Below, one piece after another: positions 4,093 through 57,668 of a stretch of DNA of 64,000 bases. The stretch is from contig CM049309.1 of the NCBI GenBank assembly GCA_026874595.1, forward strand, positions 15,528,576 to 15,592,575, written 5' to 3'. A model generated the notes under the pieces. The model was not told where the DNA came from. It did not search any database and saw only the letters and a list, made by a program, of their open reading frames with translations. Numbering within the stretch: position 1 is the first letter of the stretch; every line of letters begins with the position of its first letter. The stretch is from Sipunculus nudus. Taxonomy: Eukaryota; Annelida; Sipuncula; Golfingiida; Sipunculidae. Position numbers and translations under genes: made by a program.

Positions 4093-4707
4093 TAGTTTAT
4101 GAATGTGGGCTTGTCACTCTATGATTTACTTTTTGTCTCTTACATACACACATGTTAGATATTTTATATAGTAATATAAAGCATAATACAACACTACTGA
4201 GGGTACCCAACCAGAGGTGAATTAAGATTCCGGAATTCGGTGCACATTCACTCAATGTGTCCTCAATCTGGTTAGAAGACGAGAAAATATTAGTTTCTGA
4301 CGCGATGTCTGCTATTCATGATAAAGGTCATCGATTAGTCACAATAAGAAGAGTATGACCACAGACGTGCTGCTTTTAATGGCCTCCACCAGAACACATG
4401 TGGACCATGATCTACAAGGCATATTAAGACATATTTGATCTATATGATAGGTTGTCCATATTTGTGACACCCCAGAAAACATGTTGACGTTGGGGCCACG
4501 TTGGCTGTAAGGAGATGTATCGTCGTTGGGAAACGTACGTTTGGTTCACACACAAAATGGTTGGTATATGCCGACCGAACAGAGCTGCTTGCTGTATGTC
4601 GCTCAACTATTATATAAACGGCCTCGTCAAGTGCATCATTTTGTTTGTGTTTTAATATAAACGCTACAAAGCACCTTTATATTGATACGGTGTTGTTATT
4701 TTTTTAA

Positions 4708-21884: not shown

Positions 21885-23920
21885 TTATGCCATGGCGCAG
21901 CGTCCGTTGTCCACTCTCCATCGTCCACCGTCTGTTACCAAATATCTCAACAGCCACAGTAGCTGCCTTCATGAAACTTTGCAGAATTACTGATCATTGG
22001 ATGAACATGCAAAACTAACCTTTTGGTGTCGCCACCTATGTTGACCTACTTTCTGTCGGCCAAAATGGTCTTTCTAACTTCTTTCAAGATAAACCAAAAT
22101 GTATCAGTATTTTGGCATTCATATCATAGTCAACTGTTCCTTAGAGGAAGGGGAATAATTTGAGTATAAATTAAGTCAAGCCATTTTCAAGATAGCATGT
22201 CTACGAAACTTCAAATTGTGTCGATCGCAAAATTTGACAACTTGATGTGTTTCCATACAATATGTATTGTCTGTGTTGTGCTACTTTCAACAGGCTGTAA
22301 TGGTCTTTTCTGCTTTTCCAAAATATGTCATAAAGTATAAATATTTTGGCTTTCATATCATAGTATATAATTGCTTAAAGAAAGAGGAAAAATATATGCA
22401 TCAATTTAGTAACATTATTTTCAAGAAGGCGTCTCTAGCGAACTTCATATTGTGTCGATCGCAATATTTGACAACTTGAGGCGTTTCCATACATGTATTG
22501 TCTGTAACCAAATATCACAGGAACTGCTGCATCCTTCAGAGCGGAATTTCATAGGAATATTGATCATGCATGTAACTGCTAAATGATTTTGACGCCACCT
22601 GTATTGCGCTACTTTCTGCAGGCTGTAATGGTATTTTCTGGTTTTATTTCCCAAGATTTGACATAATGTATTAATAATTTTTGCTTGAAGACAGCGGAAT
22701 TAAATGAGTATACATTCAGTCAAGTTATTTTCAAGATGGCATCTCTACAGAATTGTTTCGATCGCAAAATTTGACAACTTGATGTGTTTTCGTATGTGGT
22801 GTATTGTCTGTTACCAAATATCTTAGGACCTGCTGAAGCCTTCAGTATCAAATTTCACGGGAACATTTATCATGTGACTGCTAAATGAATTTGACCTGCA
22901 GGTGGCGCTACCTGTGTTGTGCTACTTTCAGCAGGCTGTATTGGTCTTTTCTGCCTTTTCCATAATGTCATTAAGTATTTTTTTGTTATAATCTGCCAAA
23001 AAAGAGTCTCCTCTACAGCGTATTGAGCATAAATTGTGCATATCCATCCTGGACTCTTCAATCTTGTACTCAAGACTGGTGGCACCATCTACAATCTTTT
23101 TTCCCATGGCGTCCATCGCTACATTTTCTTTGGATGAAAATTGCTCATATCTCAGAAGTGGTTGAAGGTATTGGTCTGAAATTTGGCATGTCCATCCATC
23201 TTGAAAAGTTTTTTTTTTCAAAAAAAACCACACAGGTGGCGCCACCTACTTTCCTTTTTTCGTAGAATAAATAAATGCCTTTTTATGAGGTATGATTTGC
23301 CGTATTGGTCTTTAACTGTGCATATCCATATATATCTTGAACTCCTCAAACTTGCACTCAAGACTGATGGCGCCATCTGCAGTCGTTTTCCCCATCGGAA
23401 TCCATCCGTACATTATCTGTGAATGAAAATTGCTCATATTTCAGGAATGATACAATGTATTTGCTAAAATTTGGCATGTGCATCCATCTTGGAAAGTTTA
23501 TTCGTAAACCACACAGGTTCCGCCACCTACCTTCCTGTTTTCGTAGAATAAATTAATGCCTTTTTCTGAAGAGTGATTTGCCGTATTGGCCTGATATTGC
23601 ACATGTCCATAGATCTTAGACGACTCCATCTTGTACTCAAGACTGGTGACGCCATCTACAATAATTTTTTCCGCGGCATCCGTACATTTGCTTTGGGTGA
23701 AAAATTGCTCATATCTCAGGAGTATTGGTCTGAAATTTAGCATGTGCATCCATCTTAGAAAGTTTACTCGTACACCGGACAGGTGGCACCACCTACCGTG
23801 TGCAATGGGACAGTGTCAACTTGGTATGGAATGAATGGTATTTTCACATTCAATTTTTTCTTTTTTTAAATCACCCTCCATCGTGTACAGTAATTCACAG
23901 AGTGAACATAAGACCCCTAG
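21885..23920 (+). mobile_element. Helitron-like tandem-array element (family B)
   Basis: Opens with a GTCC/CGTC-rich leader (21900-21940). Diverged units of roughly 240 bases follow (shared TGTCGATCGCAAAATTTGACAACTTGA and CAGGCTGTAATGGTCTTTTCTG), then about three units of ~280 bases (23000-23780) containing GCTCATATCTCAG and GGTGGCGCCACC-like blocks. The right side has a small hairpin TTCAC-aga-GTGAA (23894-23906), then ten bases and CTAG (23917-23920). The arrangement of leader, tandem core, hairpin and CTRR is typical of non-autonomous Helitron/Helentron-like elements. It has no Rep/helicase frame. Confidence 0.5.
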
Positions 23921-31628: not shown

Positions 31629-31797
31629 ATGTCTGACCCCAAGTCAGAAGGTGGGGAGGAGGAGAAGACATACGGGGGCTGCGAGGGCCCGGACGCCATG
31701 TATGTCAAACTTATCTCATCAGATGGACACGAATTTATCGTCAAACGACAGCATGCCCTTACCTCTGGAACTATCAAGGCTATGTTATCCGGACCTG
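31629..31797 (+). CDS. ELOC: Elongin C, first coding exon (residues 1-57, part)
   Basis: Encodes [20 protein letters not shown], then [33 protein letters not shown] and SGP, ending one base into a Gly codon before the donor GTAAGC. This is nearly identical to human Elongin C from EEKTYGG onward, with about seven extra N-terminal residues. Elongin C has a BTB/POZ-Skp1-like fold. It pairs with Elongin B as the adaptor of Cullin-2/5 ubiquitin ligases, binding BC-box proteins such as VHL and SOCS, and is also part of the Elongin (SIII) transcription elongation complex. This exon supplies the first beta strands and the helix [11 protein letters not shown]. The start is chosen because it is the first ATG after the acceptor and gives an acidic N-terminus like that of relatives. 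Confidence 0.96.
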
Positions 31798-32036
31798 GTA
31801 AGCTCTTGAGCAACTGTGTTAATAACAGCACAAACTAGAAATCTGTATTCTAAGGAATGCAAGCCTCCACCATGTGTGGAATGCTTCGCAAACAGTGTTT
31901 GCATTATAAGCAGTGGATGTACGCTGCAGTCAACTCAGATCTCAACTTGTATAACCACTGCTTTGTTTAACAAGATTTAAACATGTGACACCTGCTCTTA
32001 TTGGTTCGATAACACAGGTTTAGCCATTGGGCCAAG

Positions 32037-32998: not shown

Positions 32999-33160
32999 AC
33001 TTAAAATGATTAGGTATTTTTTCATATTTAATCCCTTGTATTTATACCATCTGCTGACAGAAAACATATTTGTTACCACAAGTAAAGCAGACATTACATT
33101 ATTTTTTTCCTTATGTTTGTTACAACTGCTCTTGACATCATAGGAAAACAGAAGTATATT

Positions 33161-33796
33161 GCAGGATGTGAAAGATCTGTCACAAACCTGTTGTAGAAAA
33201 TCATAGAATATCCCAGGATGTGAAAGATCTGTCACAAACCTGTTGTAGAAAATCTTAGAATATCGCAGGATGTGAAAGATCTGTCACAAACCTGTTGTAG
33301 AAAATCATAGAATATCGCAGGATGTGAAAGATCTGTCACAAACCTGTTGTAGAAAATCGTAGAATATCCCAGGATGTGAAAGATCTGTCACAAACCTGTT
33401 GTAGAAAATCATAGAATATCGCAGGATGTGAAAGATCTGTCACAAACCTGTTGTAGAAAATCATAGAATATTGCAGGATGTGAAAGATCTGTCACAAACC
33501 TGTTGTAGAAAATCATAGAATATCCCAGGATGTGAAAGATCTGTCACAAAACTGTTGTTGAAATCATAGAATAGCAGGATGTGAAAGATCTGTCACAAAC
33601 CTGTTGTAGAAAATCATAGAATATCGCAGGATGTGAAAGATCTGTCACAAACCTGTTGTAGAAAATCGTAGAATATCCCAGGATGTGAAAGATCTGTCAC
33701 AAACCTGTTGTAGAAAATCATAGAATATCGCAGGATGTGAAAGATCTGTCACAAACCTGTTGTAGAAAATCATAGAATATCGCAGGATGTGAAAGA
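33161..33796 (+). repeat. 52-bp minisatellite, about 12 copies
   Basis: Unit: AGGATGTGAAAGATCTGTCA followed by CAAACCTGTTGTAGAAAATC and ATAGAATATCGC. Units repeat every 52 bases, with one shortened unit near 33541-33576. Variant positions (CGC versus CCC before AGG, ATCATAG versus ATCGTAG) show the same order in units 3-6 and 9-12, pointing to duplication of a multi-unit block. It contains BglII-type AGATCT in nearly every unit. Confidence 0.97.
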
Positions 33797-36493: not shown

Positions 36494-37213
36494 TATTTTG
36501 GTGATCTATGATTAATTTGGTCATGAAAAAATCTTCTAATGCCTCTGTGAAGGATGTATGAACTTGTTTATCAACAACATGTTTGTAAACACAGCAATGC
36601 TGACAGACAGGGAAAAACATATAACCTAGGGTGGTAGGTTGCATATATGCCGAGGTAGAAAGCTTGTTTTGTTGCAAAACAACATTTGCTTAGCTCTATC
36701 TTATCTGACTTGCCACCAGATGCCCTTGTTGAATTTTTTTTGTGGGGGGGGGGGGGTGAACCCCACCTAATATATTGAACATGTTGATATAAACAAAACA
36801 AGCAGCCTGTGTGTTGTGATATTCATGTTTACTGATCTATTTTTGTAAATGCTCAAAGGGATTACCTTTATTTTATAAAAGTCAGATAAGTGATTGGGCC
36901 CCTTTAATGTCAACCTGTTAATTTGTGCAAAAAAACTGATGCAGTGATGGCAGACTCCTCTTCTGAAAGAGCTGTCAGTCACAAGATAGTTATACCTTTT
37001 AGTAATGATATTTACATTAAGTGTGATTTGTTGAAGCATCTAGTGCTAGAAAGGTTTCCATTGTGTGCTGACCTTTTTGGACTGAGTGGCATTTTTAACC
37101 CAATGGGACAATGGTTTCAAGGAGTCACTACCTGTGTATTGTTGTGCTGAATGTCCTGAAACCATTAAATGCCTCATATCTGAATTATAATTGTTCTCTC
37201 TTATTTTTTCCAG

Positions 37214-37262
37214 GTCAGTTTGCAGAGAATGAAACAAATGAAATAAATTTTAAGGAAATTCC
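37214..37262 (+). CDS. ELOC: Elongin C, second coding exon
   Basis: A 49-base exon between TTTTTTCCAG and GTGAGT. With the carried-over base it encodes GQFAENETNEINFKEI and the first two bases of Pro, matching human Elongin C (GQFAENETNEVNFREIP) with two conservative changes (Val to Ile, Arg to Lys). This is the loop and strand region that contacts partners next to the Elongin B/BC-box surface. It is easily missed by ORF-based annotation because of its size. Confidence 0.96.
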
Positions 37263-38631
37263 GTGAGTATTCTGTTCTTTAATTCTTAACATCTTTAAGT
37301 TTGTCATTTCCAGCTGTACTGTGATATGGTGTATTGAGTGAATGCAGCATGATATTTACTCCTAATGCAGTGGTTGTACAGTGCAGTCATTCCAGATCTA
37401 CTTCACTTTAACCACTGCTTTAGTCCATTTCTTGTTGTCCATTTCCAGTATCACAAATGTACCTGATACCAGGTACAGGTATTAGGTACTTACAACTCAT
37501 GACAGCAAGCTTAGTTACAGGTACATTTTCTCTTAATTGTATACTTAGCTACAGGTAAAAGTACCTTACCCTAGCCCAGCCCTGGATAATCTTACTATAC
37601 AAAGTAGAGCTTTGTAAAAGTGAAGGAGACACAGAACGACTGCAATATATAAACACTGTATGAGGAGTGTAACGACAGCTCGTTTATCAGTGATTGTGTA
37701 TTTTAGTTGGTTTTTATTAAAAGCCTATATTAGGAATTTTTAACACATTATTTCCAAATTTTTGGTTCTAAAATAAGAAGAAATGTATACTTAAGAATAA
37801 GGCATATAGAGTTTAATAACCAATAAATATAACTTGTTTTCCCGGCAACGTCATGAAAGTCATGCATAATGTCATGGCTTGAGATAAAATTTGAGCTTAT
37901 AAAGTTGACTTTAAGACACAATGACCCTTATTTTTCTTAAATCATACATCCTCTCTATGTTGCATAATATTACTTTTGTTTATAGTTGTTTTAAAAATCG
38001 TAAAAAATGCCATTTACAAAATACCTAAAATACACAATTACCCATTTATCAGTGCAAATTTTGGTTTTCTTAAAATGCAGTTACAGAAAAAATGTTTTTG
38101 CTTTGTGTTATGTTATACCATACCATATGTTTGACTTAAAACAAGTAGAAAAAATGAATAAATAATGCAATGCTAAAATCAGAGGGATGTATGCATTTTA
38201 ACACAACATTGTAAGTTTTATTGACCTACTCACACAATCTTGACAAGTTATTTACCTGCTTACTTGTACAATTTATGTGATTTCAGGCATGCTCTGCTTA
38301 AATATAATTGAACTCGTTAAATAATTCCAGCTAAAGAGCATTCTTGTCACTCCTCTCTGATGCATGTATATTAATAAAGCCTGTTTATCTAAAAACCGTT
38401 AGTAAACACTGTACATCACCCAATGTTGACAAACAGAAAGACCATACAACTGGAGGTGGTTGATTGAATATGTGCAGGAATTGAAAGGCCACCAGTAGGA
38501 AAATGCCACTTGTAAAACTCTTATTCACTGGACTTCCAGATGTCTTTCTTAAATGTGTTTGGTTTATTTTTGCAGGTTCCCTACATATTATAAAAAGTGG
38601 ATTAAACAAAACTAGACATTTGTTCTAAGAG

Positions 38632-40365: not shown

Positions 40366-42917
40366 ATTATAAGTGAACCTTTGAGCTTATGCGAGGGCGC
40401 GCGTCGTCCGTCCATCGTCAGCCGTCCGCCGTCCAGGGCTGGCTTTCCGCCGTCCAGGGCTGTAAGTCAGAAACCCTCAGAGCTAGCAGCTCCAAATTAC
40501 ATGTAAGAATTAGTCACATGTAAAATTTGGTGCCCTGGAGCTTATTATTTGGTATCTGCATTAATTTAGATTTTATAGAGAAAAAGCTTAAAAACCTTAA
40601 AAATCTCATCTCTGAAACTGTCCAGCCAAATTGTCCAATATTTCACAGAAATGGTCCCTTGAACAATCTCTCTACAGTTTGTTCGAGTGGTTCCAGTTCG
40701 GAGATTTTTGGCCGAGTTACAGGAGGTTGAACTTAGTCATCTGTCAAAAAAAGCACACTAAAATTAAAATCTCAGAAACGGCTAGAGCTATAATCACCAA
40801 ATTTAATACCAATGTTTGTCACATATGTCATATCTTATTTTGAGGTATTGGTGGCGCCACCTACATGGATGTGTTTTTTACAAGCGAAAATGTAATTTTA
40901 AACTCTTCTAGCTTATACACTGATTTATGATGAAACTGTTAAGCTGATTGGTTTAAACTTTACAAGAATTATTCTATGGTAGGGTTCTGCCAGTTTTATA
41001 AGAATAGATTGGGTAAGTACAGTTTTAAAAAAACATTGCTTTCTGTATTTGAAAACAGACTTGACAACATGCTGACTTTCAGCAGCCAAGTCAAGAGGTC
41101 ACTCAGTACAAAAGGTGGGGTCCAGACATCAGCATGGCAACTGACCTGGCTCGGGGGGGGGGGGGGTGTCTAGACAATGTGTCTAGATGTCTAGACACAG
41201 TGTCTAGACATCTAGACACAATGTTTAGATGCAGAATTCCCAGATTATTGGAACTATATATTTCAACTGTTTGAAAAAACTTGGTTTTTTTTCAGCAAAT
41301 AGGGTTTATCATCAGGTCACATGTGAACTGCTGCGCCCTGATTTTTGGTTGACCTCTGACCTTACCTTGCTGCCCAGCGTCCATTTGAGCGTCTGTTTCC
41401 ATACATAAACCCGCATATCTCAGGAACCGTTTGACCGATCAGGCTAAAAATTTTGCACAAATGTAGCCCTTTGATAGCTTTATAATATACACTTAAAATG
41501 GTGGCGCCACCTGCAACCATTTTTGCACAGCATCCATAGGTTCATCTGACTTGAAATAATATTACTCGTATCTCAGCAGTGATTTGACATATCCACCTGA
41601 AAATTTGCAGGTTTATACACCCTGGACGGCTTTCTCGATTTTATGACAGCTGGCGCCACCTACATTCATGTTTATGCTGCAGACATCCAAGCTCATATCT
41701 CGGGAACCGACTGACCAATTGGGCCAGAATTTTGCATGTGTATAGATCTCACATAGCTCTTTATCATAGGCAAAACTGATTGCACCACCTGAAACCATTT
41801 TTGCACAGCATCCATCTGTTCATTTGCATTGGGATAATATTACTCATATCTCAGCAGTGGTTTGACTTTTCCACCTGAAATTTTGCAGGTTTATACATCC
41901 TGGACAGCTTTCTTGATTTTATGACAGGTGGCGCCACCTACATTCACGTTTACTCTGCAGACATCCAAGCTCATATCTGGGGAACTGTTTGACCGATTGG
42001 GCCAAAAGTTTGCATGTGTATAGATCTCACATAGCTCTTCATCATAGGCAAAACTGGTGGCGCCACCTGAAACCATTTTTGCACAGCATCCATCTGTTCA
42101 TTTGCATTGGGATAATATTACTCATATCTCAGCGGTGGTTTGACTTTTCCACCTGAAATTTTGCAGGTTTATACATCCTGGACAGCTTTCTTGATTTTAT
42201 GACAGGTGGCGCCACCTACATTCACGTTTACTCTGCAGACATCCAAGCTCATATCTGGGGAACTGTTTGACCGATTGGGCCAAAAGTTTGCATGTGTATA
42301 GATCTCACATAGCTCTTCATCATAGGCAAAACTGGTGGCGCCACCTGCAACCATTTATGCACAGCATCCATCTATTCTGCCTTGGCGTACAGTCACTCAT
42401 ATCTCAGCAGTGGTTTGACTTATCCACCTGAAATTTTGCAGGTTTATATATGCTGGAAAGCTTTCTTGATTTTATGACAGAAGGCGCCACCTACATTCAG
42501 GTTTACTCTGCAGACATCCAAGCTCATATCTCGGGAACCGCTTGACCGATTTGGCCAAAAGTTTGCATGTGTATAGATCTCACATAGCTCTTCATCATAG
42601 GCAAAACCAGTGGTGCCACCTGCAACCACTTATGCACAGCGTCCATCTGTTCATCTGCCTTGGGATATAATCACTCATATCTCAGAAGTGGTTTGACTTA
42701 TCCACCTGAAATTTTGCAGGTTTATACATCCTGGACAATTTTCTCGATTTATGACAGGTGGCACCACCTACCTTCACATTTACACTGCAGACATCCATGC
42801 TAATATGCAACACACCTCACTCTATTCCCCTTGCCACTTAATCCATACCTCACTTCACCCGTCCCACTCTGATTTCAGCGGATACACGTAGTCGCTTGTC
42901 GACTACCAGTATTCTAC
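40366..42917 (+). mobile_element. Composite Helitron/Helentron-like element, plus-strand copy
   Basis: 5' part (family C): GTGAACCTTTGAGCTTATGCGA, a CGTC/GTCC-rich leader, and a block with GGCCGAGTTACAGGAGGTTGA. 3' part (family A): paired subunits of ~129 and ~149 bases, period about 278, each centred on GGTGGCGCCACC (about 41504 to 42758), with GCTCATATCTC and TTTGACCGAT blocks between. The terminus is hairpin GTAGTCG-cttgt-CGACTAC (42888-42906), seven bases, then CTAC (42914-42917), apparently a decayed CTAG, followed by T. The same order occurs inverted at 52785-57262. No Rep/helicase is present, so it is non-autonomous. Confidence 0.6.
41178..41220. other. Perfect 43-bp palindrome
   Basis: A 21-base arm from TGTGTCTAGATGTCTAGACAC (41178-41198) is perfectly complementary to 41200-41220 around a single central base. 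It is built from TCTAGA units, preceded by a G run (41152-41166) and another TGTCTAGACA. It is capable of cruciform extrusion. Confidence 0.97.
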
Positions 42918-43032
42918 TTAAAATTTGATAAAACAAAAGCTCCAGTATCTTAATAACTAATGCCTTGATTGCCATGATTCTGGGATATATATTGATCATG
43001 GAGCGTTTCATCAGTTCCTGCAGACTGGATAC

Positions 43033-43067
43033 ACATAGTCGCTTGTCGACTACCCATATTATTCTAG
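43033..43067 (+). mobile_element. Solo Helitron-like 3' terminus
   Basis: Repeats the terminal hairpin of the composite element, here as CATAGTCGCTTGTCGACTAC, followed by CCATATTATT and CTAG (43064-43067) then TTTT. The sequence upstream differs from family A, so it is a related element or a fragment. Confidence 0.55.
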
Positions 43068-43383
43068 TTTTAAAATGTCCTAGTCTGAACCTTGCAGGTC
43101 TGAAATGTCCATTTTGCTGAAGTCATAACGACTAAGGTAGATATGCAGGACTTAAAAGGATCAGTATTAAATTTTAAAAATAAACCTCCATTCATACTCC
43201 CAAACTTTGCACAGGTTCGCATTAGGCCTGTAGGCCTTGTTTTTTTAATTAATAAAATAAAAAATTATGGTCACAAAGTCTAATGAACAAAAATGTTTGT
43301 TAATGGCAGACAGTTGAAAAGATCTTATACCATTTAAAATATCAATCTTTGATGAATCTATTCATAATGGATACCTTTTATTT

Positions 43384-43495
43384 TGCATGTGATGATGGGA
43401 CCACTTATTCATGAAGGTTTTCCTTTGCTGATATTCCCCTTTCGTGGATATCGCAAATTTGAAACCTTTGTGAACAAAAAGGCAACCACAGCATT
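43384..43495. repeat. TTCGCG-type repeat, right part
   Basis: GATGATGGGACC, TTCATGAAGG, ATTCCCCTTTCGTGGA, GAACAAAAAGGCAACCACAGC align with the right half of 15605-15993, with several CG to CA/TG changes consistent with decay of methylated CpG. Confidence 0.55.
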
Positions 43496-43532
43496 GAATT
43501 GAACTGCAGTTTTCATACAACACCATATCTAA

Positions 43533-43718
<186 letters not shown>

Positions 43719-44490
43719 CATCCATAAGAGGCTCCCTTTTTTGTGTGCTTGCTAAACATTGCTACCCTAGCCATCATTTGTACTTATGTAGTTGAACTTA
43801 ATCATTACTAAAACACCTAGATCTATTTATATACTGTAGGAAATCGGACCTAATATTGAGGGCATGCACGCGACCCTTGTGTGGGTATCGGAAACAAGCA
43901 GGTGTCTTGGTTGTTCATCATACATATGTATAATAGGTATGCATAGCAAACAAAAAAAAAACTAAATCATACATAACCCCAATGCACATTTCATATACAG
44001 ATATTTCACAGCTTGAGTCGTTTTGAGTAGTTACAAGATAATCGTGCATATTAGTAGTTTTCATACTGTTTTCTCAAGGTGTCGGTGATGGCTGACTACA
44101 TAGTTTGTTAGTCTTTTTGTCTAAAAATCCTGCTTTGCACAGGGATTTTTTTTTTCGTGTCGTGATCATGGGGTGTGATACATAATAACGCTACAAGGGA
44201 CACAAACATTTTGCTTACAGTAAAATACCAACATCCTAAGGTGCCCGTTTTACTCATTACTCTGTTCTAACTTTATCCAGGAAGCTGTGTTTTATTCACT
44301 TTGTGTATTTTATTTTTAAGATTTTTTTTCAACATGCAATGTACAGTCTTAGTTTAAATACCATGGGACTTCTTATTTGATAAACTAAGCTAACCCATCA
44401 TTAAATGGAAAGTTACATATATATGCCTGTATAATTAATTATTGGCTAGTTCAATTCTGTAATAAATGATGTTAAACCACATTCATTTTG
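43719..44490 (+). other. ELOC: Elongin C 3' UTR (inferred)
   Basis: From the stop, an untranslated AT-rich stretch leads to AATAAA at 44461-44466, followed by a T/GT-rich stretch (TTTTGTTCACTGTCTTTTGT, about 44487-44506). This is consistent with cleavage about 20-30 bases after the signal. Confidence 0.5.
44461..44466 (+). terminator. Poly(A) signal AATAAA
   Basis: The canonical hexamer about 745 bases after the Elongin C stop, with a GT-rich downstream element. Earlier alternative signals cannot be excluded. Confidence 0.5.
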
Positions 44491-44559
44491 TTCACTGTCT
44501 TTTGTATTATGAAAGGATTTATCTGCATCTTTAAAATCAAAGGTAGCGTCATTGAATGA

Positions 44560-45235
44560 GTCTCCTTACTCTGGTGGTGGTGTGATGACTTAACAAAAAT
44601 CTGATGGATTTTCATGAAACTCGTATAAATGTTTACCTGTAGAGTTCCTAACCTGAATTCAGTTCTGGGCAAAATTCCCACATATTTAAAGAGGTCAGAG
44701 GTCACCAGACTACTTGGTGTTGTCTCCTTGCGTCTATTAGTCTTTAAAAAAGTGTTAACTTTTAAGGTTGCTGCAGTAACTTGCCAGGGCATTAATGGAT
44801 TTCCACAAAAATTGCACAACTACTAGCCAATAGATTTTCTGACCTGAGTTTGATTATTGGTGAAATCCAAATATTCAATAAGGTCAGAGGTCTCCAGGTC
44901 CTTTTTTTTATGTGCCCACGATAACTTACCAGGGAATGATGCATTTGGATGAAACTTGGTTAATAAGTAATATGAACCAATATAATATCTTGCCTAACTT
45001 TTGATTCCCTGGCAAAATCTATGCATATTTAAATAGGTTGGGGGTCACCTTACCTTTTTGATGTTGTTATGACTTGCAAAAAATTCTGTGGGATTTTCAT
45101 AAAACTCATGAATATTTACCAATAGATTTTTCACGGGAATTAAATTCCCGAGATATTTAATACTAACTGAATGACATCAGAGTTTGCAAGATATACCACA
45201 GACATGTTATGCACCTTTGCAGTGCTCTTGTGATT
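44560..45235 (+). mobile_element. Tandem-repeat element, family E copy 2 (leader lost)
   Basis: At least four units with GATTTTCATGAAACTC, ATATTTA, and GAGGTCAGAGGTCACC spaced by about 120-170 bases. Ends in GCACC-tttgc-AGTGC (45211-45225) then TCTTGTG, as in copy 1. The CCTCTGCC leader of copy 1 is absent. Confidence 0.6.
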
Positions 45236-45279
45236 AATATTCATATCCGCAAAAATTAAGTATTGTGCATTCTATGTTT

Positions 45280-46416
45280 TATGACCGGGTTCCCCTGGCG
45301 CCGCCACTGTGTTCGTTTCCGGAGAACTCCTCTGAGACTACTGGACTGATTTTTCCGAAACTTGCACCAATTATCTGGTCACAGATGTGAACTGGTGTCT
45401 AACCAATTGGCGTTGACCGCTGACCTTTCCTTCACTGCCCAGCGTCCATTTGTGCGTCTGTTTCCACACATAAACCCATATATCTCGGGAACCGTTTGAC
45501 CGATCAGGAAAAAGATTTTGTACAAATGTAGCCCTTGGATAGCTTTATAACATACACAAATAATGGTGGCACAACCTGCAACCATGTTTGCACAGTGTCC
45601 ATCTGTTTATCTGCCTTGGGTTAAATCACTCGTATCTCTGCAATGGTTTGACTAATTCACCTGAAATTCGGCATGCGTATACATCCTGGATAGCTTTCTT
45701 GATATGCAAGTGGCGCCACCTACATTCACTTCACGCTGCAGACATCCATGCTTTTATCTCCGGATTGGTTTGACGTATCTTCCTGAAAATTTGCTTAGTA
45801 TAGATCTCACATCGCTCTTTATCATATGCAAAACTGGAGGGGCCACCTGCAACCATTTTTGCACAACGTCTGTCTGTTTGTCTGCCTTGGGCTAAAATCA
45901 CTCATATCTCATTAGTGGTTTGACTTATCTGCCTTCAATTTTGCGTGCCTACATCAGCTTTATCGTTTTGGGGTTTTTTTGGCAGGTGGCGCCACCTTCA
46001 TTCATGTTAACGCTTCAGACATTCAGGCTTATATCTCAAGACTTGCTGGACATATCCCTCTGAAATTTGTATAGATCTAACATAGCTCTTAATCATAAAC
46101 AAGATTGGTGGCGCCACCTGCCACCATTTTTGCACAGCATCCTTCTGATTTTCTGCTGTAGGATAAAATCACTCATACAAATAGTGGTTCGACTTCTATG
46201 CCTTAAATTTTGCATATGTTTACAACTTGGACAGCTTTCTGGATTTTGTGGTAGGTGGCGCAACCTACATACACATTTCGGCTGCAGACATCCATGCTAA
46301 TATGCAACACACCTCACTCTTGTTTCCCCTTGCCACTCAATCCGTGCCTCACTTCACCTGTCCCACTCTGATTTTGGCGGATACACGTAGTCGCTTGTCG
46401 ACTACCCGTATTCTAG
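45280..46416 (+). mobile_element. Helitron-like element, family A copy 2
   Basis: Starts around GACCGGGTTCCCCTGGCGCC and contains the same alternating subunits, with GGTGGCGCCACC or a near variant at about 45563, 45711, 45837, 45985, 46109 and 46256. The last unit gives way to ACACCTCACTCT, CCTTGCCACT and TCCCACTCTGATTT, then hairpin GTAGTCG-cttgt-CGACTAC (46387-46405), CCGTATT and CTAG (46413-46416), followed by T. The 5' part differs from the composite copy at 40366. Confidence 0.65.
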
Positions 46417-46570
46417 TTTATGTATGCACTATCCCAAAACCCTTGGTGTGCTGTCACAACACTGTAATGTTAAGACAATGTGATGTGTACGATCTACATG
46501 CTCAAGATACAATTAAAGAAGCATTCTCCAGTTGCATAACAATTATCTGTACCAATCACGTGCCTGTTTT

Positions 46571-48466
46571 TATGCCCCCGCCACAAAGTGGCCGGGGCAT
46601 ATAGTTTTACCCATGTCCGTCATTCCGTCCTTCCGTCATTCCGAAATGAAACAGTTGTACGGACTTTTTTCGCAATGCCTGCAGATATTGGCCTGATTTT
46701 TGGTGTGTGGGCAGATATAGACCAGTTACAGATCGGTTTCGCGTTTCGTCCCGGTTGACCTACTTTTGACCGTTTTACGGCTCCTAAACTTAGAAAATTT
46801 CATGAAAAATAGGAATATTCATGACAGATACACATGTACGGACTTTTTTTCGCAATGCCTGCAGATATTGGCCTGATTTTTGGTGTGTGAGCAGATATAG
46901 ACCAGTTACAGATCGAGTTCGTGTTTCGTCCAGGTTGACCTACTTTTTACCGTTTTACGGCTCCTAAACTTAGAAAATGTCATGAAAAATAGAAATATTC
47001 ATGACAGATACACATGTAGAGACTTTTTTTCGCAATGCCTGCAGATATTGGCCTGATTTTTGGTGTGTGAGCAGATATAGACCAGTTACAGATCGAGTTC
47101 GCGTTTCGTCCTGGTTGACCTACTTTTGACCGTTTTACGGCTCCTAAACTTAGAAAATTTCATGAAAAATAGAAATATTCATGACAGATACACATGTACG
47201 GACTTTTTTTTCGCAATGCCTGCAGATATTGGCCTGATTTTTGGTGTGTGAGCAGATATAGACCAGTTACAGATCGAGTTCGCATTTCGTCCTGGTTGAC
47301 CTACTTTTGACCGTTTTACGGCTCCTGAACATAGAAAATTTCATGAAAGATATGAAATTTCATGACAGATACACATGTACGGTTTTTTTTCTCAGTGCCT
47401 GCAGATATTGGCCTGATTTTTGGTGTGTGGACAGATAAAGACCAGTTACAGATCGAGTTCGCGTTTCTTCCTGGTTGACCTACTTTTGACCTTTTTACGG
47501 CTCCTAAACTTAGAAATTTTCATGAAAAATAGAAATATTCATGACAGATACACATGTACGTTTTTTTTTCTCAGTGCCTGCAGATATTGGCCTGATTTTT
47601 GGTGTGTGGACAGATATAGACCAGTTACAGATCGAGTTCGCGTTTCGTCCCGGTTGACTTACTTTTGACCGTTTTACGGCTCCTGAACATAGAAAATTTC
47701 ATGAAAAATATGAAATTTCATGACAAATACACATGTACAGACGTTTTTTCGCAGTGCCTGCAGATATTGGCCTGAATTTTAGGGTGTCGGCAGATATTGA
47801 CCAGTTACAGATGGAGTTCACGTTTTGTCCCAGTTGACCTATTTTTGACCGTTTGACGGTGCTCTAACATAGAAAATTTCATAAAAAGGTGCACATGTAT
47901 GGACTTTTTTTCGCAGTGCCTGCAGATATGGGCCTGATTTTTGGTGTGTAGGCAGATAATGACCAGTTACAGATGGAGTTCTTGTTTTGTCTCAGTTGAC
48001 CTACTTTTGACCATTTGACTGCTCCTGAACATAGAAAGTTTCATGAAAAATATAAATTTTCATAACAAATGCATATGTACTGACTTTTTTTCCTCAATGC
48101 CTGCAGATACCACCCTGTTTTTTTGTGTGGGCAGATAATGACAGTTACAGATCGAGTTTGCGTTTCATCCTGGTTGACCTACTTTTGATTGTTTTACGGA
48201 TCCTAAACATAGAAAATTTCATGAAAGACAGAAATTTTTATGGAAAATGCACATGTATGGACATTTTTTCACAATGCCTGCATATACTGGCACGATTTTT
48301 GGTGTGTTGCTTGATAATGACCCGTTACAGATCAAGTTTGCATTTTGCCCTTGTTGACCTACTTTTGACCATACGACACCTCCTGAACTTAAAAAATTTT
48401 CCAAATTTTACAAATGTTTCTAATTTGCCCAAGGCGGGGGCATTCGTGTCGTTCTGACACATCTAG
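46571..48466 (+). mobile_element. Helitron/HINE-like element with ten ~180-bp tandem units (family D)
   Basis: The left side is a hairpin TATGCCCC..CCAC-aaa-GTGG..GGGGCATA (46571-46601), followed by a GTCCGTCATTCC-rich leader. Ten tandem units start at about 46657, 46836, 47016, 47196, 47377, 47556, 47735, 47897, 48077 and 48255, each with GCCTGCAGATATTGGCCTGA, GACCAGTTACAGATCGAGTT and GTTGACCTACTTTTGACC. The right side is GGCGGGGGCAT (inverted match to the left CCCCCGCC), hairpin GTGTC-gttct-GACAC (48446-48460), AT, CTAG (48463-48466), then T. Divergence rises toward the last units. No coding capacity. The design matches bivalve elements with tandem cores now grouped with Helentron-associated repeats. 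Confidence 0.7.
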
Positions 48467-48469
48467 TTT

Positions 48470-49707
48470 TTTTCTTATTTTCATCTTATTTATTTTATTT
48501 ATCTTTTCATCTTATTTAGTTCATATCCTCTAGTAAACCTTGTATCTTAGATACTAGTTATGACATTTCAACATGAACGCATTTTCTTAACCTAGTGTGG
48601 CAACAGGATGAGTGGTATAAAAATTCTTCATTTTCAACGATAATTCCGTCGTTTTCAAGTGTGTTTGAAAAAGCCATGCCGTAGCTGATCCTGAGGTGCG
48701 ACTGTATGTGTTTACAACAGATTACTTGCGTGCGGCGCACAGACATACCACACCCATGCATAATTTGGCTAGTTGAGCACCTGGGGCCCAAAGAGGTTGA
48801 GCGAAGGGATTATTTCTTAGATCTTAAGCATTTTATGACAGCTTCATATGTTAGTAAATCTTTACCCAACTAGATTTATCTTATTTAATCCCTGAAAAAA
48901 AGTATGAAAAAATATAAAGTCTATCCTAAAAAAAGTATTTTACTTTTAAAAAAGTATAGAGCAGGAGCACTTACAAGTCGAACACCACTACTTTGCAACA
49001 AGACTAACGAGGTAATCCATGCCTTAAATGTATGAATATCTTGTACACAGATATCCTGAGAAAAAGAAGGGACAGTAAAATGCATGCTAATATATTTCAG
49101 GGTTTCCACTCAAAACCTGGTATTAATTTAAGTACTTTTCAGAATATCAAGGGCCATATCCATCAGATTTCATGGACCAATTGCACTTTGAATAAGAAAA
49201 TTTAATGAATGGTGATGATTGCCAATAAAAGTGCTCATGCAGATTGACACTGTTCCTTTGCTGTAGAATTCACCAAGACTTTCACACGAAAAGACTTTCA
49301 TGACCGGGAGAACATAATATTAGAGAAATAATAGGGATACAAAAATTGTTTTGAATTTTTTTTATATTTCACAGATTGAACAGAGCTATTCAAGAAAAAT
49401 GGCCACAGGGCCTACAGTTCCCATCATGATTCATCATAATTCAAGTTCTTATTGTAACAACTGAATGAAAATGATCTGAATACAGCCAGTTAAATGGACA
49501 AACTTGATATAAACAAAGAACTAAATAAAAAAACTTAACTGAATCTGGCTAAGGTTTCTCATAAACGTCTGTATTGACTTAATTCTAATTTAAACAATGT
49601 AAAAATAGAATAGACAGTGAATGCATACAAATTAACAATTATCAAAACAATTGCAGACAATGACATATGCATATATCTTACATTTATATACATATATTTT
49701 ATATATA

Positions 49708-49751
<44 letters not shown>

Positions 49752-51299
49752 TATATATATATAAAATATCAATGTGTGAACATGTATGTTCTATACATGT
49801 TATTTGTCTGAAAATATTCAAGAATTACCAATACATAACACAAGTTATAATAGAAATTATGTAAATTAATTATACAAACATATGAATAAAATAAATATAT
49901 TAACAAATGAAATAATAGTAGAGATATCTTACCTCTGCATGTATCCTTAAAGAAAATATAAAAGTTTTATTACAGTATAAAAAACTATATAATGCAGTAT
50001 TCATATCTTAATCAGAATTCTTGCATTTAAAGGGCATACTTTAAACTTTAAATAGAGATAATTTGGCCCTAGAATATATAAAATAGGAATATATTAAATG
50101 AATATTTATTTAATTACTGACTTTATACCTAAATGGTTGTTTCCCTCTTCCTAAAAGCATTCTATTGCAGCCCTAAATTTGATAGGCCTATGGACCTCCT
50201 TTAGTCACATGACCAACGTATTCTGTTACAAAACCTAAGTTTCAAATTCTGTAACTTTGCACAAACCTGATTTGGAATGGATTTGAAAATGAAATGTTTT
50301 ACCTTTAACAATGAAAGGACGGTGCGATACTTTGGTAAACAAAGCTAGTACATGTTTGTAGTAACATCTTGTTAGCTCTATGGGTATATAAGCAGACCTG
50401 TACAGGCAAAATAAATAGGAAGTGGCTAAACTGCAGGCAGGGGAAATGTACCTTGCCAGCAGTATGGGTAGGCATAGCATTGGCATAAGCTTTAATTAGG
50501 GGACGTGCGAAGATGTTTGAAATGCTTTAATTAGTTATGAATCTTCCCTCCCTGAGCTGTCTCAAGATCACATTTGAATGTCTTTAATTAATTATCTGCT
50601 TATGTTTTGATCTGACATATCTCTAGTTGATTGCGCTTTCTCAAATTTCACTGCCTGTTGGTTTACTTGCTTCTATTTAAGCAACCATTATGCCATAGCT
50701 GCAGTCTTCATTAAATTCACATTAGCTTTCCTTTGATCAAGTACTCGGGTTATCCTTTGATGTTTATACCAAGGTAATTTAAAGGTATAAAACCCCTGGC
50801 AAGATTTACTTCAGACCCAGAACAAGAAGTTTGAACTAAATCACACCAATTTTATCATTGGATAGAACACTACCTGGAAAAAAATCACAACGTAAGAAGT
50901 TTTATCATTTACACCACTTCGGCACTGCCGGCAGTTTAGCTACTTTCATATAAATAAATGGTTTCCATATCCAACCAATGTGTAAGATAAATCCATGATT
51001 TAAATATATCTTCATGCTGATTTTGCTTTCAGTCGGCATCTGTTATTATTCTCAACCTTTTGATAAAATAATCTTATGAATATGTCGGCTTGGAAAAGCT
51101 ACATACACAAAATATAATCCCTTGGCCCTTTTCAGGCCTTAGCTGCAATTGCGTTAATCTGGTACAACGCGCAGTGGGCAGCCATTTGTCTTGCTTCCAT
51201 CTTGCACAGGTTTCAAATAGCAGTCGCAATATAGGAAATCACACCTTCGTTGTAGCAAGTTTCTGTTACTTGCACTCCATGGGGCTTTCAGCTTGCGAT
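48470..51299. other. Intergenic AT-rich DNA, no gene recognised
   Basis: No recognisable coding, RNA or transposon feature apart from an (AT)n tract at 49711-49763. Confidence 0.4.
49711..49763. repeat. (AT)n microsatellite
   Basis: Alternating AT with one AAAT interruption. Confidence 0.95.
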
Positions 51300-51992
51300 C
51301 AGGGTTGGGGTAATTGAAATGTGTAATTATAATAACCTGTAATTAATTAAATTTTTCAAGTAATTGAATGTATTTGAACAAAACTCAATTACAAGTAATT
51401 GTAATTGTAATGATTACAAGTAATTGTAATTGTAATGATTACAAGGGTAAAATAGATGTAATTTCAATAACTTTTCAATTACTTTCCAATTACTTTCCAA
51501 ATTAATGACAGAGCACCGTACCTTATACCTCATTTCTTTACATTTTTATCAAAACACTTTTGGGTAAGGATTGTAAGCTATGATTATTGACTAAATAGTG
51601 TACCCATGTATGTAATATGCATGGTACTTAGTATGCCTTATAGTTATACTGGGCTTTTTTTTTGCAAATGCCTTAACTGCAGTGTAGATAAAGTAACAAG
51701 CTTATATAATGTATATAATGATATATTTTGTTTTTTTTATGCAGTTTTTCCTTTTATAAATTTAATCAGTTGACCTTTCTAACATTACTGATACTTTGAC
51801 ATGAACTATGCATCTGTATATTATATTTTTTTATAAAGTAATTGAATGTAATGAATTACTTTTCAAAAGTAATTGTAATTTAATCATTACTTTGTAAAAT
51901 TTAAGTAATTTGTATTTGTAATTGTAATTGAGATTTTTGAAGTAATTGTAATTGTAATGATTACTTTTTCAAAGTAATTTGCCCCAACCCTG
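51300..51992. mobile_element. Non-autonomous hAT-like transposon, short copy
   Basis: Starts CAGGGTTGGGGTAATTG and ends TGCCCCAACCCTG. Flanks CTTGCGAT (51292-51299) and CTTGTGAT (51993-52000) form an 8-bp target duplication with one change. Interior blocks such as CTTATACCTCATT, AAAACACTTTTGGGTAAGGATT, GTAGATAAAGTAACAAGCTT and GCAGTTTTTCCTTT match 5892-7543, but a central segment of about 0.9 kb is missing. It therefore looks like an internally deleted relative. Confidence 0.88.
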
Positions 51993-52075
51993 CTTGTGAT
52001 CGCACTTTTGCTACCATCGAACAAGTACCAGTCATTGCTGCCAGAGGTCGCTCAGTTCAATAAAGCTGTCACTCC

Positions 52076-52078
<3 letters not shown>

Positions 52079-52157
<79 letters not shown>
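52079..52157. repeat. (AT)n microsatellite
   Basis: About 78 bases of alternating AT, about 90 bases after the hAT-like element. Confidence 0.97.
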
Positions 52158-52161
<4 letters not shown>

Positions 52162-53680
52162 CGACCTTTCAGGTCAAGCAAACGTACTCCAAATCTCATT
52201 ATATTATCATCTAACATAATTGCTTAAGAAAAAAAATCTTAATATAGATTTTCCATAATGAGCCCAATTCCTGGAGGGAAAATGTTTTTTCTATCTATTC
52301 TTCCACTAAAAACATGAGATTGTGTGATTTGTTCAAAAACTATTGGCCCATATATTAGCACTATCAACTCGACAGTGACGTCACACACTGGGAAATCCCC
52401 TGTGACTAAACATTCTAGATCTCAGTAAAAGCACAGTATTTCTGCCAAATTCTCAGTAGAGAATAAAAACAACATGCATTACTAGATCTGAGTTGTTGAT
52501 AAAATTCAGTCCATGATGTCACAGGTGTACCAGCTAACCCAATTAGGGCAAAGTCTGGGATCTGGATGCAATCTTACAATCACACAACAAGGCCTACAGG
52601 CGAACTAATGCGAACCTGTGCAATGAGAATACACCAGGTATAATGCTTCAATGCTAGACCATTACTTTTCAAGAACATGTGTAACATGTATATGAGCAAT
52701 GCAAGTATTAAACACTTGGAACAAGTAAAAATTAAACAAACATCACTGCTGCAATTCTAGCATGGGTGCACACAACACAAAAAACCAGAATATGGGTAGT
52801 CAACAAACGACTACATGTATCCGCCATAATCAGAGTGGGAAAGGTGAAGTGAGGTATGGATTGAGTGGCAAGGGGAAATAGAGTGACGTGTGTTGCATAA
52901 TAGCCTGGATGTCTGCAGCTGAAGTGTGTATGAAGGTTGCGCCACCTACCACAAAATCCAGAAAGCTGTCCAAGATGTATAAACATGCAAAATTTTAAGC
53001 AGCTAAGTCAAACCACTACTGAGATATGAGTGATTTTAGCCAACGGCAGACAAACAGACGGATGCTGTGCAAAAATGGTATCAGTTGGCACCACCAATTT
53101 TGTGTATGATTTAGAGCTATGTGAGATCTATACACATGCAAAATATCAGGGGGATATAACAAACCAGTCCTGGGATAAAAGCCTGAATGTCTGCAGCGTA
53201 TACATAAATGTAGGTGACACCACCTGCCACAAAATCGAGAAAGCTATCAAAGATGTATAAACATGCAAAATTTTAGGCAGATATGTCAAACCACTGCCGA
53301 GATATGAGTGATTTTAGCCCGAGGCAGACAAACAGACGGACGGTGTGTAAAAATGGTGGAAGGTGACACCACCAATTTTGTGTATGATTTAGAGCTATGT
53401 GAGATCTATACATTTGCAAAATATCAGGGGGATATAACAAACCAGTCCTGGGATAAAAGCCTGAATGTCTGCAGCGTATTCATAAATGTAGGTGGCGCCA
53501 CCTGCCACAAAATCCAGAAAGCTATCCAAGATGTATAAATATGCAAAATTTTAGGCAGATAAGTCAAACCAGTACTGAGATATGAGTGATTTTAGCCCGA
53601 GGCAGACAAACAGACAGACGGTGTGTAAAAATGGTGGCAGGTGACACCACCAATTTTGTGTATGATTTAGAGCTATGTGA

Positions 53681-54621
53681 ATGAATGAATGAATGAATGA
53701 ATATTTTATTCAGAAATATAAGGCCTCGGGCCCATAGTTCCATATGTGCATATATCACATGTAGAAAAACAAAATAGACAATGTTTTCAAACTTGAAAAA
53801 CAACATCACAAAGATAAAAGAAATGAAATAATAAACAAATGATAATATGTGATATATGCATTCCAAAATATTAACAAACAAACAAACAAACAAAAAAAAT
53901 CATGTAGAGGTCATTTCAACCATATATATAAATATACATAAATATACGGTTCTCATAAGATTAATAAATATGCAAGTTAATAATTACACATCTGCATGTG
54001 TATACACATATTCTCAATACATATACATGCATAACTACATATTAAGCCATATGTAATCATAAAATATATTTTATAAATACAAATATATCTATATTAATAT
54101 AATTTTAAATAAAACTTTACATATTGAACTCTTTTAATGTGGACAATTTACTTAAATTTTAATATGCATATATAATATTATCTAAATATTGTACTACTCA
54201 GCTACCCAAGGACTCGTTCACAGCTTCCTGCAGATGGTCCGCATGGTAAACTTGCAAAGGGGGCCAAGTAGTACCAAATAGTATTATATCTCAATTGTTT
54301 TTATCCATATATATATAATACACATACATACATATATATACACACATTATATATATATATATTATTTTTACTTGATCAAAATTTACATAGTTTTATTCAT
54401 ATATTAATATTTATAACCAGAGTAAACAAGTGACCGTTCAACTATTTCATATGGATAATCTGTTTAATTTAGTTATTATCTAATGAATTATTTCTCTTTT
54501 TGAAGGCATAGTGTACAAATGCTGCTAAACTATTAATAACATCAGTATTTTTACTTGACATAAGAGATATAAAAGAAAATCTGCCAAATTTAGAAAGGTA
54601 AATATCTCTTAGTTCATTGTA
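53681..54621 (-). mobile_element. LINE 3' fragment inserted in the repeat array
   Basis: Flanked by identical 14-base direct repeats TTAGAGCTATGTGA (53667-53680 and 54622-54635). Read on the minus strand it ends GGGCCCGAGGCCTTATATTT, CTGAATAAAATA and (ATTC)n, i.e. a poly(A)-signal-like AATAAA followed by a tetranucleotide tail as in several LINE clades. The rest is AT-rich 3' UTR-like sequence with no recognisable reverse transcriptase. The GGCCCATAG block recurs near 59358. Confidence 0.75.
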
Positions 54622-55640
54622 TTAGAGCTATGTGAGATCTATACACATGCAAAATATCAGGGGGATATAACAAACCAGTCCTGGGATAAAAGCCTGAATG
54701 TCTGCAGCGTATTCATAAATGTAGGTGGCGCCACCTGCCACAAAATCCAGAAAGCTATCCAAGATGTATAAACCTGCGAAATTTTAGGCAGATATGTCAA
54801 ACCACTGCCGAGATATGAGTGATTTTATCCCACGGCAAACAAACAGACGGATGCTGTGCAAAAATGATTGCAGGTGGCGCCACCAGTTTTGCGTATGATA
54901 AAGAGCTGTGTGAGATCTATAAACCTGCAAAATTTTTGTCCAATCGGTCAAATGGTTCCTGAGATATGAGCTTGGATGTCTGAAGCGTAAATTTGAATGT
55001 AGGTGGCGCCACATGTCATAAAATCAAGAAAGCTGTCAAGGATGTATAAACGTGCAAAATATCAGGTGGATAAGTCAAACCACTGCCGAGATATGAGTGA
55101 TTTTATCCAAAGGCAGATGATCGGATGGACGCTGAACAAAAATGGTTGCAGGTAGCACCACCATTTTTGCGTATGATAAAGAGCTATGGGAGATCTGTAC
55201 ACATGCAAGATTTTCGGCCAATTGGTCAAACGGTTCCCGAAATATGACCTTGGATAACTGCAGCTTAAACGTGAATGTAGGTGGCGCCACCTGCCACAAA
55301 ATCAAGAAAGCTGTCCAGGATGTATACACATGCACATTTTCAGGTGGATAAGTCCAACCAATGCAGAGATATGATTGTTTTTATCCCAAGGCAGATGAAC
55401 AGATGGACGCTGTGCAAAAATGGTTGCTTGTAGCGCCACCATTATAAGTGTATGTTATAAAGCTTTCCAAGGGCTACAATTGTGCAAAATCTTTAGCCTT
55501 ATCGGTCAAACGGTTCCCGAGATATGTGGGTTTATGTGTGGAAACAGACGCACAAATGGACGCTGAGCAGAGAGGAAAGGTCAACCAAAAATGAGGGCGC
55601 AGCAATTCACATGCAGCTACTGCACTGAGTGAACTCTTAA

Positions 55641-55990
55641 CCCATACCTGGCTGAACTTCTTCCAATCCAGGCACTGTGCCAAAACTATTTATAGAGCTG
55701 ACATCATCTTGGCTAAAGGCCAACATCAAGGCACTGGCAATCTGCCAATGGTAAACCAAGTGCTGCCATCTGTACACAAAAGTGGTCCCTACTTGAAATA
55801 ACTTTGAAATTTATTTTCCCAATACATAATGCTTTTCAGCTGACTTTTTGTAAAAAAAAAAAAGAAATCAGGAATATATGTAAAATTATTACGGATGCAT
55901 ACTGAATGCGAAATTAAAATACAGATATATCTCATTGATGGCAAACTCTTGAATTAAGTTGAGTAGGGATACCAAAAATTTATAATCCAC
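55641..55990. other. Interior spacer of the minus-strand composite element
   Basis: Between the family A units and the first recognisable family C unit. No repeat unit or coding frame was recognised; it may be diverged element body. Confidence 0.35.
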
Positions 55991-56648
55991 GTACAGTTGT
56001 CTTTATATAGGCACAGAGAGCTGAAAAGCAATGATTGTAACATTGCCTGGTTTGATGAATAACTTAAATCGTAAATCTAAATTTTTTAAAAGCTTTTAAA
56101 ATAACTTTCTTGTCAATATTACCCAAAGATAACCTGAAATCTAAATGTCTAGTGGCATGATGTAACAGCATCACACAGCTAACATATATTTTAAAATAAC
56201 TCCAATCTCCATAATTAAGCCAAAAATCATTCATGTGGAACCAATAATGACAATTATTATCAGAATTATTGTAGGGATTATTCTTGTAAAATGTTTAACA
56301 AACTGGCTGGCATCAGTCGAAAAACGTTTCGCAGGTTTATAACTCATATAGAAAGATACAGCAAACTGGCTAAGTTAAGCTTCCTGTAACTCAGCCAAAA
56401 AGCATTGAACCAAAACCATTTGAACAAACTTGAATTATCAACATCTGAGGATAATTAATGTGTGAGATTTAAGAATTTGGCCCAGAGGTTTTTGAGAAGA
56501 AGATCTTTGTAGCCACTGAGCTAAATTATGGCTGTTATGGCATATGACTAAATTCAGCTTCCCATATCTTAGCCAAAAGTCATTAAAAGAGACCATTTGA
56601 ACAAACTTCAGAAAGCACTACCCTAGGATCATTTCTGTGTGACATTTT

Positions 56649-56763
56649 GGCAATATGGTTTCAGAGAAGAAGTTTTTTGTAGCCTTCAGTGTGATACAGG
56701 CACTGATGAATATGGTTTCAGAGAAGAAGTTTTTTGTAGCCCTCAGTGTGATACAGGCACTGA
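56649..56763 (+). repeat. 57-bp tandem duplication
   Basis: Two nearly identical copies of a 57-base segment starting AATATGGTTTCAGAGAAGAA and ending GGCACTGATG. Because 57 is a multiple of three, the overlapping frame shows a 19-residue peptide repeat, which is a by-product. Confidence 0.93.
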
Positions 56764-57262
56764 TGACCCCGTACAAAAAAAGGCCGATGCAGGTGCCGCC
56801 ACCAATACCTCAGTTTCAGACATGACCGATGTGACAAACTTTGGCATAAAATTTGGTGATGATAGCTCCAGCCGTTTTTGAGATTTAAATTTTAATATGC
56901 TTTTTTGCACAGTTAACAAAGTTCAACCTCCTGTAACTCGGCCAAAAATCTCCGAACTGGAACTATTCGAAAAAACTTGAGAAAGATTGTTCCAGGGATC
57001 ATTTCTGTGAAATATTGGACAATTTGGCTGGACACTTTCGGAGAAGAAGATTTTTAAAGCTTTTTTTAGCTTTCTCCCTATAAAATCTAAGAAAATGCAT
57101 TTAGAAAAAAATAAACAAAATCCGATACAGTTTATTGGATAACTGATTATTTGCCAAAAAATTGGTGATGCAAGCTCCTGCCGTTTTTGAGATAGCTATG
57201 GTTAACGTACAGACGACGCACGACGCCGCACCATCGCATAAGCTCACAGGTTCGCTAACAAA

Positions 57263-57586: not shown

Positions 57587-57594
57587 CCAAGGTG

Positions 57595-57660
57595 TTAGTC
57601 TCTCCAACAGAAGCCAGGTGCCGCTACCGCTCTGCACCTGGCGTCTGTTGGAGAGACTAA
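57595..57660. mobile_element. 66-bp foldback element with 8-bp target duplication
   Basis: Arms 57595-57621 and 57634-57660 are 27 bases each with one mismatch, starting TTAGTCTCTCCAACAG, around a 12-base loop. The element sits between perfect direct repeats CCAAGGTG (57587-57594 and 57661-57668). The duplication length suits hAT, P or Merlin-type insertion. Confidence 0.85.
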
Positions 57661-57668
57661 CCAAGGTG

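Follow-up and report, generated by a model that had tools for sequence, protein, structure and literature searches.

Alpha and beta HINEs of Sipunculus nudus share central satellites, and an internal hairpin in alpha elements most likely derives from a nested beta element

HINEs and the Elongin C locus

The published anatomy of HINEs, the non-autonomous Helentrons, matches that of the elements described here (PMC4067079), as does that of the oyster HINEs (PMC7492417). For the oyster HINEs the autonomous partner was left unresolved, and recombination was proposed among elements with common flanks and different repeats (PMC7492417). The hairpin of Helraiser-type elements acts as a transposition terminator, which can be bypassed with the formation of new 3′ ends (PMC4778049). 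The present analysis concerns a 64,000-nucleotide stretch of the genome of the sipunculan Sipunculus nudus (GenBank assembly GCA_026874595.1, contig CM049309.1, positions 15,528,576 to 15,592,575, forward strand), referred to as the window, in which Helitron-like repeats surround the 3′ end of the Elongin C gene. An original prediction, made from the sequence alone, had interpreted these repeats as a composite element running from a CGTC-rich leader to a hairpin, with one copy on each strand and a third copy that started differently.

The three copies belong to two families. Copies 1 and 2 are supported as HINEs of a family termed alpha, which are protein-less and carry satellite-like repeats, and copy 3 is a member of a separate HINE family, beta, the 3′ end of which is the hairpin followed by CTAG. 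The hairpin of copies 1 and 2 is most likely an internal relic of a second element nested in alpha and not their terminus. The whole explanation, that alpha HINEs with a nested beta relic had their arrays fused and spread via the alpha ends, is given a probability of about 0.8. The genome searched comprises 1,426,538,692 bases (1.43 Gb) and includes the window; only the best candidates of each search (around 40) were scored, so the resulting counts are lower bounds.

As with Cg_HINE of Crassostrea gigas (PMC7492417), the elements have a subterminal inverted repeat (subTIR) of 11–12 bp, a GTC-type microsatellite, a satellite-like central array, a 3′ subTIR with a palindrome and a T-rich insertion site without target duplication; two arrays are at times present and the autonomous partner has not been found. 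Unlike Cg_HINE, in which monomers are mostly 140–180 bp, the period here is 278 bp and dimer-like, and the elements contain the embedded 3′ block of a second HINE together with fused arrays from two families. The recombination proposed for the oyster elements also differs, since the common part here is the repeat and not the flanks. The HINE/DINE-1 elements (PMC4067079) share the subTIRs set in from the 5′ end by a few bases, the 3′ palindrome, the insertion at T and, in some cases, central repeats, but no link to an autonomous Helentron is shown here. A literature search, with subscription journals and Repbase outside its range, found, among the papers listed, no report of two HINE families fused via common central repeats.

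The hairpin within amplified alpha copies

The claim of a complete element from leader to hairpin did not withstand comparison with genome relatives. For copy 1, 39 of 13,418 candidates were scored and 20 of the 39 places were fetched, including L010, whose fetched piece lacks its 5′ end. Of the 20, 16 contain the hairpin block together with the alpha tail, with a coordinate difference between them of 139–143 in 14 of the 16 and of 123 in L016 and L026, both of which have deletions. In two more, L013 and L023, the hairpin block is followed by part of the filler that separates hairpin and tail. Because the sequence goes on past the hairpin, it is internal in 18 of the 20 relatives. L018 contains the filler and the tail without a hairpin, and L017 is the sole one of the 20 that stops at the hairpin end. 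The flanks outside TTAGCG...CCTTG vary from locus to locus among the alpha relatives.

In the search with copy 2, for which 40 of 22,783 candidates were scored, 18 non-self rows among the matches listed cross the hairpin end (query 4478) to reach the alpha tail at query 4673–4680, and none of the listed rows stops at the hairpin. The 18 include a possible duplicate pair, two rows on the same contig at a distance of 46 kb. Two hairpin-bearing rows were fetched, L068 and L069, the latter having CTAG followed by TTTTTGTGTTG. There are also hairpin-free siblings: L064–L067, all fetched, matched copy 2 only over its last ~131 bases and have the same tail without the hairpin, and in L020 a diverged alpha array joins TTTTGTGTTG directly, again with no hairpin. 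The junction in L020 corresponds to the place at which L069 carries CTAG ahead of TTTTTGTGTTG.

A single composite that extends from leader to hairpin plus CTRR and is mobilised as a whole would account for the part order common to copies 1 and 2, and for L017, which has an alpha start, stops at the beta CTAG and shows no alpha tail in the 2 kb beyond. Such a unit is nonetheless improbable in view of the 18 fetched relatives and the 18 listed copy-2 matches that go past the hairpin. Moreover, since the right side of L017 carries the end of a standalone beta subfamily, this locus looks like a separate fusion and not like a member of a composite family. The term composite remains apt for a beta fragment inside alpha, but not for one unit from leader to hairpin.

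Anatomy of the alpha family

The predicted order of parts, in which a GTC-rich leader is followed by C units, then by A units containing GGTGGCGCCACC and finally by the hairpin, was recovered in copy 1 on the plus strand and copy 2 on the minus strand, and the starts placed near 40366 and 57262 are right to within a few bases, as judged from genome copies. The alpha element as now delimited consists of a 5′ subTIR GCGAACCTGTG, the GTC-rich leader, C units, an array of ~278-bp A units and a 3′ subTIR CACAGGTTCGC with a palindrome, and it finishes with CCTTG followed by TT; its boundaries are TTAGCGAACCTGTGAGC at one end and CACAGGTTCGCATTAG-GCCTGTAGGCC-TTG at the other. The supposedly reproducible end at 42917 and 52785 had been set too early. 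A further block, TTGCACAGGTTCGCATTAG(TTC)GCCTGTAGGCCTTGTT, is common to copies 1 and 2, some 290 and 160 bases downstream; it matches the 5′ start in inverted orientation and terminates the genome copies, and the alpha ends lie 322 and 197 bases past the previous ones. Pairing of CACAGGTTCGC with GCGAACCTGTG is 11/11 in copy 2 and 9/11 in copy 1, the 10-base core of the subTIR being weak alone (4 window matches against 1.55 expected with one mismatch allowed).

Copy 1 occupies 40370–43239 on the plus strand, its ends being taken from genome copies. The 5′ end, with the subTIR (9/11 against its 3′ partner) and a GTC-rich stretch, covers 40370–40415, and the C-unit leader at 40542–40866 is about 85% identical to 57114–56787 on the minus strand. 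The A-unit array, with its 278-bp period and all alpha-like, extends over 41320–42806, and is followed at 42809–42917 by the internal, beta-derived 3′ block with the hairpin, where the original prediction had ended. The alpha filler between hairpin and 3′ end (43065–43205) is common to the relatives, and the 3′ end, with CACAGGTTCGC, palindrome and CCTTG followed by TT, lies at 43206–43239. The longest leader match between copies 1 and 2 shows ~85% identity and the first A region 84.8%. Tandem Repeats Finder reports 4.7 copies of the 278-bp unit in copy 1 (41495–42806); for the two parts of copy 2 the values are 2.9 and 2.7. The 19-mer of the hairpin (up to 3 mismatches) has four matches in the window and none in 100 shuffles.

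A fourth, partial hairpin is located at about 43027–43064. It belongs to a stretch at 42918–43064 (plus strand), found in copy 1 alone and absent from the 16 aligned relatives, in which ~109 extra bases lie between two hairpin copies. Homology between the post-hairpin stretches of copies 1 and 2 was considered and rejected: the local score of 22 compares with a shuffle mean of 22.7, and 272 of 500 shuffles score as high or higher.

Copy 2 is an alpha HINE of a different subfamily at 52588–57258 on the minus strand. The left part of its A array (54930–55613) is alpha-like; the right part is beta-like and, with the beta 3′ block, fills 52787–54930, and the alpha 3′ end is at 52588–52623. The array is interrupted by a retroposon-like insert (53681–54622, minus strand), of some 940 bases, with a (TTCA)n tail and a 13-base duplication at its flanks, where CACATAGCTCTAA is found on either side. 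Among the matches listed genome-wide, 17 at 96–99% have an identical start base, and because of this the insert looks like a full-length, recently active element of the non-LTR (non-long terminal repeat) type.

The beta family and copy 3

Copy 3 is not a differently started version of the same element, as had been supposed, but a beta element with its own 5′ end. It spans 45243–46416 on the plus strand, is full length by alignment and ends with the hairpin and CTAG followed by T; its 5′ end is decayed, with 8 mismatches against the 30-base beta 5′ consensus. The boundaries of the family are GTATCCGCCAAAAC at one end and TTTTGGCGGATACAC-GTAGTCGCTTGTCGACTAC-CCGTATTCTAG at the other. Of 46 non-self rows listed in the genome search with copy 3, 23 stop no more than 10 bases past CTAG, and 23 have their start at query 33–59. 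The beta 5′ end, GTATCCGCCAAAAC-GAA-GTTTTGCGGATAC followed by CCG-rich DNA, is present in 11 of 20 fetched loci with up to 4 mismatches. Within the window, the inverted pair TATCCGCNAAAA is confined to 45244 (plus) and 46372 (minus), the two ends of copy 3, against an expectation of 0.04. The exact 38-base beta end has 1,252 + 1,304 = 2,556 genome occurrences, with none for the reversed control, and beta hairpins fold better than shuffles (z −2.0 to −3.1).

Shared arrays and the switch from alpha to beta

The satellite-like central repeats of the two families are homologous, with a 278-bp period, and a transposase was found in neither alpha nor beta. The arrays were scored in 100-base windows against pools of 12 alpha and 17 beta loci, which left out L029 (copy 3 itself) as well as L034 and L042 (wrongly oriented by the script). 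In copy 1, 30 of 31 windows score as alpha-like and one is a tie; copy 3 is beta-like in all 22, one of them by a single bit. Copy 2 switches at ~54950: 12 of 14 windows to the left of this point are alpha-like, whereas those to the right are beta-like in 6/6 and 17/17, and FastTree groups its units 3–5 with the units of copy 3. A switch is also present in L017, where 26 alpha-like windows are followed by beta-like ones (five of six, one tie), the switch and the stop at the beta CTAG falling at oriented ~3200–3539. The right end of L017 represents an abundant beta subfamily with at least 39 non-self matches at 93–96%; among the matches scored, 31 of the 39 stop no further than 7 bases past CTAG, and the remaining eight no further than 17. 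Three of these matches were fetched, two of which have a beta 5′ end, with none found in the fetched stretch of L063.

The passage of L017 from alpha-like windows to a beta CTAG would be expected from template switching, in which replication initiated at the 5′ end of alpha moved onto a homologous beta array and so acquired the beta end, giving alpha/beta chimeras with no need of nesting, and the ability of Helraiser to bypass its 3′ ends and form new ones (PMC4778049) lends this some plausibility. However, in copies 1 and 2 and most relatives the beta hairpin is still followed by the 3′ end of alpha, so that either a second switch back or a nested insertion is needed, and L017 is one locus; template switching as the general explanation appears unlikely. 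L017 hints that ends can be exchanged. That two HINE families sharing only the central satellite exchange ends during transposition, with an alpha start leading into a beta array and a beta terminator as in L017, is a still more doubtful proposition. If it were true, the shared satellite would act as a hub at which recombination reshuffles the ends of transposons, and both types of end would depend on a single helper.

Insertion sites and classification

Both ends were obtained for 13 of 20 alpha loci and 8 of 20 beta loci, which could thus be joined in search of empty sites. Alpha inserts without target duplication. Paralogous empty sites with a junction-spanning match were found for 5 of the 13 alpha loci (L009, L018, L021, L022 and L012), the match for L012 being weak (69%, within its own locus). 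Of the 9 alignments printed, 8 are gap-free to a distance of 5 bases from the junction; in that of L009 with L028, a gap of 2 bases adjoins it. L021 is inserted in the leader of another alpha element, and the leader of copy 2 is one of its empty sites. All 13 alpha loci have T as the 3′ flank base, although the pattern used to find that end was biased towards T; beta is flanked by TT in 8 of 8 loci and by T in 7 of 8. Terminal inverted repeats (TIRs) combined with target duplications, as would mark another superfamily, did not turn up. The inverted 11-bp match between the two alpha ends could recall a cut-and-paste miniature inverted-repeat transposable element with TIRs; this class was rejected on the empty sites without target duplication, and with repeats that are subterminal and asymmetric it is scarcely credible.

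Canonical Helitrons have 5′ TC and 3′ CTRR and insert between A and T. Beta resembles them, and Helraiser (PMC4778049), in having a 19-nucleotide palindrome 11 nucleotides ahead of CTAG, with T next; this feature is confined to beta, as alpha ends in CCTTG. Membership of this class is very improbable and was rejected, since alpha begins TTAGCG and beta begins GTATCC after TT in all 8 joinable loci, neither start being TC. Nor is the target A/T: the 5′ flanks are mostly T (10 of 13 in alpha, with A in two, and 8 of 8 in beta) and the sites T-rich, and both families have inverted subterminal repeats, unlike canonical Helitrons (PMC4778049).

Assignment to the Helentron type, one of the possibilities raised originally, is supported by the inverted subterminal repeats, the 3′ palindromes, the GTC or CCG microsatellite leaders, the satellite-like central repeats and the absence of alpha target duplication. 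The inverted subterminal repeats occur at both ends of both alpha and beta. A microsatellite leader with central tandem repeats, and T-rich, T/T insertion without target duplication (empty sites coming from alpha only), are likewise HINE characters, and an AGGCC/GGCCT stem is present at the alpha 3′ end of copy 1.

A probable nested origin of the internal hairpin

For the preferred explanation, a nested beta element, we infer the following order of events. Most likely, beta inserted in two alpha lineages at a T-rich site beside the alpha element's own array. Recombination between the homologous alpha and beta arrays would then have joined the two and eliminated the 5′ end of beta, and the beta hairpin would have stayed behind as an internal relic. 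The fused elements would have spread via the ends of alpha, presumably by a rolling-circle mechanism with a Helentron Rep/helicase supplied in trans.

Several points weigh against this explanation or the classification on which it builds. No alpha copy with a complete nested beta, including the beta 5′ end, was seen, and L017, with its alpha start and beta end, is unexplained by plain nesting. None of the 8 beta joins gave an empty site, and the alpha 5′ flank base is T in only 10 of 13 loci, with A in two and G in one. Neither the 3′ palindromes of alpha (z −1.0 and −0.1) nor its 5′ ends (z 0.5 and 1.2) fold better than shuffles, as a result of which the nested inverted repeat of HINE 5′ ends is not shown for alpha; in beta the candidate for it is GTATCCGCCAAAAC-GAA-GTTTTGCGGATAC. 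Finally, the autonomous partner is not linked. Helitron_like_N has 143 matches in the genome, seven of them within open frames of more than 2,000 aa, and no alpha or beta end was found in the regions of these seven (three were followed further out, and the ends of those elements were not reached). The loci L049–L060, beside long Helitron_like_N open frames, have long tandem repeats of their own.

Genes and other repeats in the window

Exons of Elongin C were located by tblastn at 31659–31823, about 37213–37281 and 43578–43715 on the plus strand. Copy 1 lies within the last intron, as inferred from these exons, and copies 2 and 3 are downstream of the gene. A Pfam search of five open reading frames in the window gave nothing beyond a Neurensin domain, the Neurensin/TMEM74 domain in the frame at 1083–1973 on the minus strand (E 4.5e-30). 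Pattern scans of viral contigs and of genome contigs gave 0 matches.

A third HINE-like element, at 46572–48466 on the plus strand, has a 5′ end with ATGCCCCCGCCAC/GTGGCCGGGGCAT, a GTCC-rich leader, 9.6 copies of a 180-bp unit and a 3′ end composed of GGCGGGGGCAT, the hairpin GTGTC-GTTCT-GACAC and ATCTAG followed by TTT. At 23039–23797 (plus strand) there are 288-bp repeats, ~70% like the A units and containing GGTGGCGCCACC, which fall outside alpha and beta as delimited. A long inverted repeat is found directly upstream of copy 2 (57594–57661), and a 52-bp tandem repeat with 12.4 copies and 95% matches at 33156–33796.

Implications for HINE biology

Both ends and many copies are now given for two abundant HINE families, together with empty sites for alpha. 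Homologous satellite arrays of different HINEs can fuse, such that a relic 3′ hairpin is mistaken for a terminus, and tools based on a hairpin plus CTRR would cut such fused elements wrongly. The alpha and beta ends can be used to seek the autonomous partner, which is also missing for the oyster HINEs (PMC7492417).

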